Part shown: one piece after another, positions 24,589 through 26,275 of the stretch
How positions within the stretch are numbered: the stretch's first letter is position 1
Layout of the letters: the number at the start of each line of letters is the position of its first letter
From: a virus
Length of the DNA stretch: 26,394 bases
Reading direction: 5' to 3' (one strand)
IMG/VR virus record: IMGVR_UViG_3300020463_000114
Span: 1 to 26,394 of that record
Notes under the pieces: generated by a model
Told to the model about the DNA's origin: nothing
Seen by the model: the letters and a program-made list of their open reading frames with translations, nothing else
Databases searched by the model: none
Program-made: the position numbers and the translations under genes

Positions 24589-24945
24589 ATGAAAACTTTT
24601 GATGAGAAAACATACAGGCCTCTTCCTGAAGAGTTGACTATAAAAACAAGTAAAATAGATGGACTAGGTTTGCATACAAAAGTAAATTTAGATGCAGGAG
24701 TAGTTTTAGGCGAAACACATGTACTAGTTCATAACAGAGACAGACACGAATGGGTAAGGACACCACTAGGAGGATTTATAAATCATAGTGATGACCCAAA
24801 TTGTTATATAAGCACAGACAGAGGCGACAGAACATTACATACAATTAAACCAATTAAAAAATCAGAAGAACTGACAGTTTATTATAGATTTAAAGGATAT
24901 GACGGTACTGTAGGAGATGACACAGATCCTAATATTGAGGAATGA
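24589..24945 (+). CDS. SET-domain protein (lysine methyltransferase-like)
   Basis: 118 residues from the ATG at 24589; a TTG at 24577 overlapping the uvsY stop is an alternative start. Post-SET-core motifs are clear: KIDGLGLHTKVNLDAG (first strand pair), GGFINHSDDPNCYI with the NHS cofactor/knot motif at 65-67, and EELTVYYRF at 93-101, with the tyrosine expected in the active site. The protein is a minimal SET domain with no added domains. Such proteins methylate lysines in proteins; the target could be a phage or host protein. It lacks a clear Shine-Dalgarno and is probably translated by coupling to uvsY. The NHS-PNC and E-x-L-x-x-x-Y patterns make the fold call solid; activity is untested. 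Confidence 0.82.
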   Translation: MKTFDEKTYRPLPEELTIKTSKIDGLGLHTKVNLDAGVVLGETHVLVHNRDRHEWVRTPLGGFINHSDDPNCYISTDRGDRTLHTIKPIKKSEELTVYYRFKGYDGTVGDDTDPNIEE

Positions 24946-25077: not shown

Positions 25078-25105
25078 TTGACAATTTGCAAAAATTTGCT
25101 ATTAT
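25078..25105 (+). promoter_or_regulatory. Sigma70-like promoter of the AAA+ gene: TTGACA, 16 bases, TATTAT
   Basis: A perfect -35 box TTGACA (25078-25083) and TATTAT (25100-25105), one mismatch from TATAAT, have a 16-base spacer. An overlapping TATATA at 25103-25108 is a less well-spaced alternative. GGGAGG at 25131-25136 precedes the ATG at 25142. Confidence 0.78.
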
Positions 25106-25141
25106 ATACACATAGTTTAAAAAATACTGTGGGAGGTAAAT

Positions 25142-26179
25142 ATGCAAAACTATGTAAAAATTAAATCTGGAACTTATCGTAGTTCACCATTAAAGGATAT
25201 GATCTTTCCTTTAATTAAACCAATTAGTTATGGAAAACGTGGAGCATTTGTTACTGTAGATGCAAGTGCTGTTATGAATCCAGAATACAAGAAAATTAGA
25301 GTTCTTGTAAATGGTCCATTAGATATAGAGCCTTCTAATAAAGAAGACTACAAAAAACTAATGGGTATAGAAAAACCTAAGGCTAAAAAGAAAGAAACTC
25401 CTGAACAAGCAATGAACAGGATTAAAGGCCGTTTCCAAATATTGGATAAAATGACTGATGCAGTTGCTAACAATGTTGTTAGAGGACTTATTGTATCAGG
25501 CCCTCCAGGTGTAGGAAAAAGTTTTGGTGTTGAACAAATACTAGATGAGTATGAGGCAATGGCAAAACTAGGTGGTAAAACTAGAACAGAAATTGTTAAA
25601 GGTTCTATGACACCTATAGGTTTGTATCAAACACTTTTTAACAACTCTAACGAAGGAGATATTTTAGTTTTTGATGACTGTGATAGTATCCTTTTTGATG
25701 AGGTGTGTCTTAATATGTTAAAAGCGGTTTTAGATTCAGGTAAGAAAAGAACAATTAGTTGGAAAGCAGAATCAAATGTATTAAGAAGAGAAGGTGTGCC
25801 TGATAGATTTGATTTTAAAGGCGGTTGTATCTTTATTACTAATGTTAATTTTGAGAATGTTAGAAGTAAAAAGATTAGAGACCACTTAGAGGCATTAATG
25901 TCAAGATGTCACTACATTGATCTTGGTATGGATTCTATTGAGGATAAATTTTTAAGAATAAACCAAATTGTAAGAGATGGTATGCTTAAAGAATATGGCT
26001 TCTCAAAAGATTTCGAAAAAGAAATTATAGACTTTATGATAAAACATAGTGCTAGACTCAGGGAGATTAGTTTGAGAATGGTACTTAAAATTGCTGACTT
26101 GGCTAAAATGGATTTCGATAATTGGAAAGAAATATCCGAGTCAACATGTATGAGAAGGATTAACATTTACGAATCCTAA
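25142..26179 (+). CDS. AAA+ ATPase, possibly clamp-loader-like or remodelling type
   Basis: A 345-residue protein with an ~95-residue N-terminal domain of unknown type (Lys-rich linker at ~75-95) and then a AAA+ core. Walker A is SGPPGVGKS (119-127), Walker B GDILVFDDCDS (172-182), and a sensor-1-like FITNVN spans 231-236. S254-R-C256 follows in MSRCHYIDL, the position of the SRC arginine-finger motif in clamp-loader subunits. It otherwise differs from T4 gp44 in the N-terminal extension and in length, and the C-terminal helices (HSARLREISLRMVLKIADLAKMD) are those of a general AAA+ lid. Clamp loader, helicase loader and protein remodeller are all possible. It has its own sigma70-like promoter and a strong ribosome site. 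Confidence 0.8.
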   Translation: MQNYVKIKSGTYRSSPLKDMIFPLIKPISYGKRGAFVTVDASAVMNPEYKKIRVLVNGPLDIEPSNKEDYKKLMGIEKPKAKKKETPEQAMNRIKGRFQILDKMTDAVANNVVRGLIVSGPPGVGKSFGVEQILDEYEAMAKLGGKTRTEIVKGSMTPIGLYQTLFNNSNEGDILVFDDCDSILFDEVCLNMLKAVLDSGKKRTISWKAESNVLRREGVPDRFDFKGGCIFITNVNFENVRSKKIRDHLEALMSRCHYIDLGMDSIEDKFLRINQIVRDGMLKEYGFSKDFEKEIIDFMIKHSARLREISLRMVLKIADLAKMDFDNWKEISESTCMRRINIYES

Positions 26180-26185
26180 TCAGAT

Positions 26186-26203
26186 CTGTAATTAATTTTA
26201 CAG
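26186..26203 (+). other. First of three tandem RNA hairpins after the AAA+ gene
   Basis: CTGTAA (26186-26191), loop TTAATT, TTACAG (26198-26203), a perfect six-pair stem starting seven bases after the stop codon. There is no T-run behind it, so it is not a terminator by itself. It is followed within ten bases by the second hairpin. Confidence 0.6.
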
Positions 26204-26212
26204 GTTCCCCCT

Positions 26213-26241
26213 AGTGTTCGAGTCCTCCCACATCGAACACT
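26213..26241 (+). promoter_or_regulatory. Second hairpin, with a CCUCCCACA loop complementary to the AAA+ gene's ribosome site
   Basis: AGTGTTCGA (26213-26221) pairs perfectly with TCGAACACT (26233-26241), leaving loop GTCCTCCCACA. Bases 26224-26232 are the exact reverse complement of TGTGGGAGG (25128-25136), the Shine-Dalgarno region of the same gene. The loop also resembles the 16S anti-Shine-Dalgarno. Regulation by RNA pairing is a hypothesis. Confidence 0.5.
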
Positions 26242-26243
26242 TT

Positions 26244-26275
26244 GAAACCCCCAAATTAATTTGGGGGTTTCTTTT
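26244..26275 (+). terminator. Rho-independent terminator, third hairpin
   Basis: GAAACCCCCAAA, loop TTAA, TTTGGGGGTTTC (26244-26271) followed by TTTT. The twelve-pair stem is the strongest in this region. It ends transcription from the AAA+ gene just before a fresh promoter. The 28-base repeat is a perfect palindrome, so it would also fold in a transcript from the opposite strand. Confidence 0.85.

Follow-up and report, generated by a model that had tools for sequence, protein, structure and literature searches.

The window, that is, the whole stretch of DNA analysed, is the record of a tailed phage, 26,394 bases long, with tail sheath, terminase and UvsX genes, and the closest cultured relatives of its terminase belong to the Pseudomonas PA5oct group (58%). 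The locus examined here comprises an AAA+ ATPase gene and the following elements around it.

25078–25105, plus strand: putative sigma-70-type promoter, TTGACA-16-TATTAT with TG before the -10 (consensus scan, 11/12 matches)
25128–25136, plus strand: leader site TGTGGGAGG, the 5' pairing partner, which contains the Shine-Dalgarno (GTGGGAG or a variant in 96 distinct homologues)
25142–26179, plus strand: AAA+ ATPase gene, 345 aa (phrog_1250; distant homologue of T4 nrdC.10)
26183–26206, plus strand: first 3' UTR hairpin (predicted fold; present in many close relatives)
26207–26212, plus strand: second, unpaired C-rich motif CCCCCT (context TTCCCCCTAGTG; nearly all hairpin-type relatives)
26213–26241, plus strand: 9-bp stem with an 11-nt loop presenting an anti-Shine-Dalgarno motif (stem covariation)
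26224–26232, plus strand: 3' site CCTCCCACA, the 3' pairing partner (CCTCCCAC invariant in 19 hairpins; compensatory changes in L301-type relatives and L364)
26244–26275, plus strand: intrinsic terminator GAAACCCCCAAATTAATTTGGGGGTTTC-TTTT

The AAA+ protein scores barely over the cut-off for Pfam AAA, and its homologues in KVP40 and Acj9 are annotated as nrdC.10-like. Counted from the putative promoter, the predicted leader is ~30 nt long, and relatives contain a similar AT-rich, -10-like stretch upstream of the leader motif. The 3' UTR, up to and including the terminator, measures 96 nt (26180–26275) and is shorter in distant relatives. Since the gene has a promoter-like sequence and a terminator of its own, its mRNA is probably a short monocistronic transcript.

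The sequence-only reading had pointed to a perfect complementarity between a 3' loop and the leader of this gene, and its coordinates were confirmed to the base: 25128–25136 and 26224–26232 are exact 9-nt reverse complements. With the start codon at 25142, the leader site corresponds to the Shine-Dalgarno. Mononucleotide shuffling of the 3' UTR produced a match of 9 nt or longer in 39 of 5000 trials (~0.8%), so that the match in the window is by itself suggestive, not convincing. None of 27 other genes tested in the window matched its own leader over more than 8 nt, and the sole 8-nt match among them is AT-rich and located away from the Shine-Dalgarno. The sequence TCCTCCCACA occurs a single time in the window record.

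Relatives were gathered by searching viral contigs, with the window protein, an alignment and progressively more distant members as queries, which yielded 96 distinct coding sequences with usable flanks and 62–100% identity to the window protein; every relative carrying the element is a metagenomic contig. Analysis of their flanks revealed a leader site together with a complementary 3' site in 96/96, where this number refers to sequences and not to independent events, as do the other counts given here; only the two compensatory changes located in the protein tree count as events. The presence count depends in part on the search patterns for the 3' site, which included the core motif; these patterns nonetheless yielded the site in every homologue. 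The leader sites were of the GGGAG or AGGAG type upstream of the start codon, the complements lay between the stop codon and the terminator, and in every lineage the paired leader segment was the Shine-Dalgarno itself.

The stem around the loop (26222–26232) is formed by AGTGTTCGA (26213–26221) and TCGAACACT (26233–26241). Among 19 distinct hairpins, four stem pairs had changed on both sides and the loop CCTCCCAC was invariant; 95.9% of the stem cells were paired, compared with 19.5–44.4% in slid controls. All 32 matches of the hairpin pattern in viral contigs were located directly 3' of an AAA+ gene. The distant clade has no such hairpin, and its complement lies 0–8 nt after the stop codon. 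The display of the loop on a nine-pair stem, as described in the sequence-only reading, therefore holds for the window clade but not for distant relatives, which carry the motif without the hairpin; all these relatives share the pairing, whereas the hairpin is limited to one clade. No Rfam family matched the window at the gathering score. A tRNA T arm, prompted by the TTCGAGTCC look of the stem, was rejected, since the pairing does not fit and Rfam gave no match.

Covariation was analyzed in 43 distinct site pairs after in-register alignment of the leader and 3' sites. The 7-bp core was fully paired in 40 of them, with one pair lost in the remaining 3, and standard pairs occupied 99.0% of the 7-pair core cells against 47.8–67.1% in slid controls. 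Two core pairs had changed on both sides, and neither the observed core pairing nor the covariation score was reached by any of 500 shuffles. The maintained pairing core is GTGGGAG/CTCCCAC. As for the TGTG previously claimed to be specific to this gene, its GTG is kept paired, but the outermost T is unpaired in 17 of the 43 site pairs.

One of the compensatory changes, from G-C to A-U, is found in L301, L305, L306 and L318 (CTGTAGGAG with CTCCTACAG; compensated core TGTAGGAG with CTCCTACA), and the other, from U-A to G-C, in L364 (GGGGAGG with CCTCCCC). The protein tree places the former four in one clade with support of 100/100 and groups L364 with L297 and L328, both of which have the unchanged motif. 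Because L364 stands beside these unchanged relatives, on a branch other than that of the L301 clade, the changes represent two separate events, although L364 sits on a long branch and its precise position in the tree is unsure. Outside the core, the pairing extends to 10 bp in L205 (GTGGGAGAAC with GTTCTCCCAC) and L318 and to 11 bp in L328, and L057-type relatives have a matched outer extension (TGTGGGAGA with TCTCCCACA). G-U pairs are tolerated at the edge of the pairing. Independent drift of loop and leader among relatives, which the sequence-only reading had named as the result that would contradict it, was looked for, and the opposite was found: both sites are kept in the 96 relatives, and core changes are compensated in two separate lineages.

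Some of the data count against the mechanism. In four loci from two lineages (L035/L047 and L048/L051), the leader reads GTGCTGGGAGG but the 3' site has not changed, so that one core position is mismatched without compensation and the contiguous pairing is 7 bp long; a one-base bulge would partly restore the pairing. L364 also contains one core mismatch. Note that the L035/L047 and L048/L051 lineages lie far apart in the protein tree yet have the altered leader GTGCTGGGAGG in common, through either parallel change or recombination. At 0.073, the covariation score of the slid control at +3 was higher than the 0.063 of the 7-pair core, because four of the seven core pairs never vary; this control remained below the observed core in pairing and in doubly changed pairs, and no slid control exceeded the covariation score of the 9-pair version. 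A crude swap test, in which the duplex energy of each leader was compared across every 3' UTR, showed no advantage of self over other (8490 of 20,000 permutations were as good), since most lineages carry an identical motif and those four core pairs are invariant. The weight of evidence rests on the two compensatory events and the near-complete pairing in register, on which we regard it as very probable that the leader and 3' sites pair as RNA.

The distant homologues examined in cultured T4-like, KVP40-like, Atu_ph07, Aeromonas and Vibrio phages (including D506) showed no such pairing, and this was counted against the mechanism. In the Pseudomonas phages PA5oct and 30-3, leader and 3' region are complementary over another 8-nt sequence, AGTAGCAT/ATGCTACT (shuffle frequency 0.021), located inside a different hairpin. 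In PA5oct (L413:398-421 and L413:1574-1653), this hairpin lies after the stop codon; the complement is possibly an analogous device, or could be due to chance. A search of viral contigs with the protein of Pseudomonas phage 30-3 found no relatives.

The predicted energy of the isolated duplex between the leader and the 3' site was -16.2 kcal/mol, compared with -11.6 when the leader is paired with the 16S anti-Shine-Dalgarno. Folding of the full-length 1165-nt mRNA without pseudoknots gave a pairing probability of ~0.03, with a minimum-energy fold that lacks the pairing and a cost of 2.6 kcal/mol for forcing it; pseudoknot-free folding cannot represent pairing of the loop while the stem stays closed. 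A nested fold, in which CCCCCT (26207–26212) is paired with the G-run of the leader, was also predicted.

The 3' motif covers the Shine-Dalgarno and its duplex is predicted to be stronger than the 16S pairing, so repression of initiation is the most likely effect. The reading we favor, and consider somewhat probable, is that an anti-Shine-Dalgarno in the 3' UTR pairs with the leader of its own mRNA, blocks ribosome binding and caps output. Ribosomes could load before RNA polymerase completes the 3' UTR; once the tail is made, CCTCCCAC would pair with GTGGGAGG, cover the Shine-Dalgarno and stop initiation. The pairing could occur within one molecule or between copies of the mRNA, and output per mRNA or per infection would be capped as a result. 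The sequences themselves show the complementarity, its retention, the compensatory changes and, in one clade, a covarying hairpin; from them we infer that the RNAs are made as drawn and pair in the cell, with a repressive effect through a block of initiation and with the timing outlined. A variant in which every terminating ribosome masks the post-stop anti-Shine-Dalgarno of the distant clade and the end of ribosome traffic releases it, so that idle mRNA locks itself shut, appears unlikely to us; if true, such a traffic-sensing switch would have been kept for one gene near recombination genes, as a linear motif or as a hairpin depending on the clade.

The main rival to self-repression is a small RNA derived from the 3' UTR, cut off or separately made, that would act in trans on the AAA+ mRNA and perhaps on host mRNAs. 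The evidence for pairing fits trans action as well as cis action, the OppZ and CarZ RNAs of Vibrio cholerae provide a precedent (PMC7398697), and the 3' UTR of the window clade resembles a small RNA in its succession of a hairpin, a C-rich single strand, a hairpin with a C-rich loop and a terminator. In the distant clade, however, the tail is short, and the motif lies within 0–8 nt of the stop codon without a surrounding hairpin. Moreover, eight phage records, mostly fragments, were examined for further GTGGGAG sites, and none of those read lay before a start codon, so that these records yielded no further phage gene carrying the 7-mer at its start. We give this rival a minor share. The same anatomy would also suit a closed loop that protects or stabilizes the mRNA instead of repressing it, as in Bacillus subtilis hbs, for which the review PMC7821165 describes protection against RNase Y, and the post-stop motif of distant relatives would bring ending ribosomes near the start site. 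A purely protective duplex, however, would not need the Shine-Dalgarno, which is paired in every lineage; since the paired leader segment is this site, pairing and ribosome loading are mutually exclusive, and protection without repression seems improbable.

Readings that dispense with RNA pairing fare worse. A 9-bp inverted repeat flanking one gene, whether as the ends of a mobile element or as a pair of protein-binding sites in DNA, would also keep both copies alike. However, the 5' copy always contains the Shine-Dalgarno, the 3' copy is looped out on a covarying RNA stem upstream of the terminator, and the edge accepts G-U pairs. Gene order around the AAA+ gene is also stable: uvsX lies upstream and, in most cases, a TonB-receptor-like gene downstream. 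Mobile-element ends were rejected as the origin of the repeat on this ground. A DNA repeat is thus largely refuted already and very improbable. Coincidence, in which a C-rich loop matches by chance because Shine-Dalgarno sites are alike, could draw on the 9-nt matches obtained in 0.8% of the shuffled 3' UTRs; it is refuted by the 96 distinct homologues and the compensatory change in two lineages, and we assign it practically no weight.

Among known systems, the closest in principle to the proposed self-repression is icaR of Staphylococcus aureus, in which a C-rich 3' UTR motif, UCCCCUG, binds the Shine-Dalgarno of its own mRNA, blocking the initiation complex and creating a substrate for RNase III, and in which compensatory mutations restore binding (PMC3868564). 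As in icaR, the phage 3' UTR has a motif complementary to its own Shine-Dalgarno (exact over 9 nt in the window), and compensatory changes support the pairing, natural ones in two lineages of the phage and engineered ones in icaR. The icaR 3' UTR is long, at 38% of the total mRNA length, and other staphylococci lack its motif (PMC3868564; PMC7821165). In contrast, the phage 3' UTR of about 96 nt falls under the icaR-like length of >100 nt, which the mechanism does not strictly require, and the phage element is kept across a divergent family and displayed in a hairpin loop in one clade. In hbs, a 14-nt pairing between the 5' and 3' UTRs protects from RNase Y and is not conserved among close relatives, according to PMC7821165. 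The phage mRNA resembles hbs, as described there, in that its two UTRs would pair with each other, and differs in that the paired segment is the Shine-Dalgarno and is retained across a divergent family. OppZ and CarZ are small RNAs processed from 3' UTRs by RNase E that repress their own operons in trans by base-pairing (PMC7398697); the phage 3' end is likewise the complement of the site where translation of its own mRNA starts, but the AAA+ gene, unlike those operons, is probably monocistronic.

The closure of hok mRNA is a fold-back between its 5' and 3' ends. In the type I toxin mRNAs hok and aapA, the structure of the full-length message keeps the Shine-Dalgarno closed (PMC6733600, PMC11228461). 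Whereas these encode small toxins and are accompanied by antisense RNAs, the phage gene encodes a 345-aa AAA+ protein, with no antisense RNA evident. A partial literature search in open-licence papers found no described phage case of anti-Shine-Dalgarno pairing between 5' and 3' UTRs. The phage element would thus follow the same principle as icaR, and what appears to be new is that it occurs in a phage lineage, is deeply conserved, has undergone natural compensatory changes and is presented in two ways. Because icaR and hbs are reported as unconserved between close species (PMC7821165), 5'-3' UTR pairing could so far be seen either as a regulatory strategy that lasts or as a collection of oddities. 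In the phage case, the complementarity has persisted throughout a divergent family, with compensatory changes and in two presentation forms, so that the family offers a natural alignment for this question of durability and a defined set of mutations to test.

Other observations concern the surroundings of the gene. TonB-receptor-like homologues lie 3' of the AAA+ gene in most relatives; the window copy starts at ~26364 and is cut by the window end, and the copy in L001 (L001:4214-6241) encodes 676 aa with a TonB-dependent receptor plug domain. A gene resembling an outer-membrane receptor is unusual in a phage. Upstream of the AAA+ gene, a small SET-domain gene (24601–24945), possibly for a protein lysine methyltransferase, is found at that place in the closest relatives only. 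The terminator of the window differs from that of L001 despite an identical AAA+ protein and resembles that of L006, which suggests local recombination within the 3' UTR.
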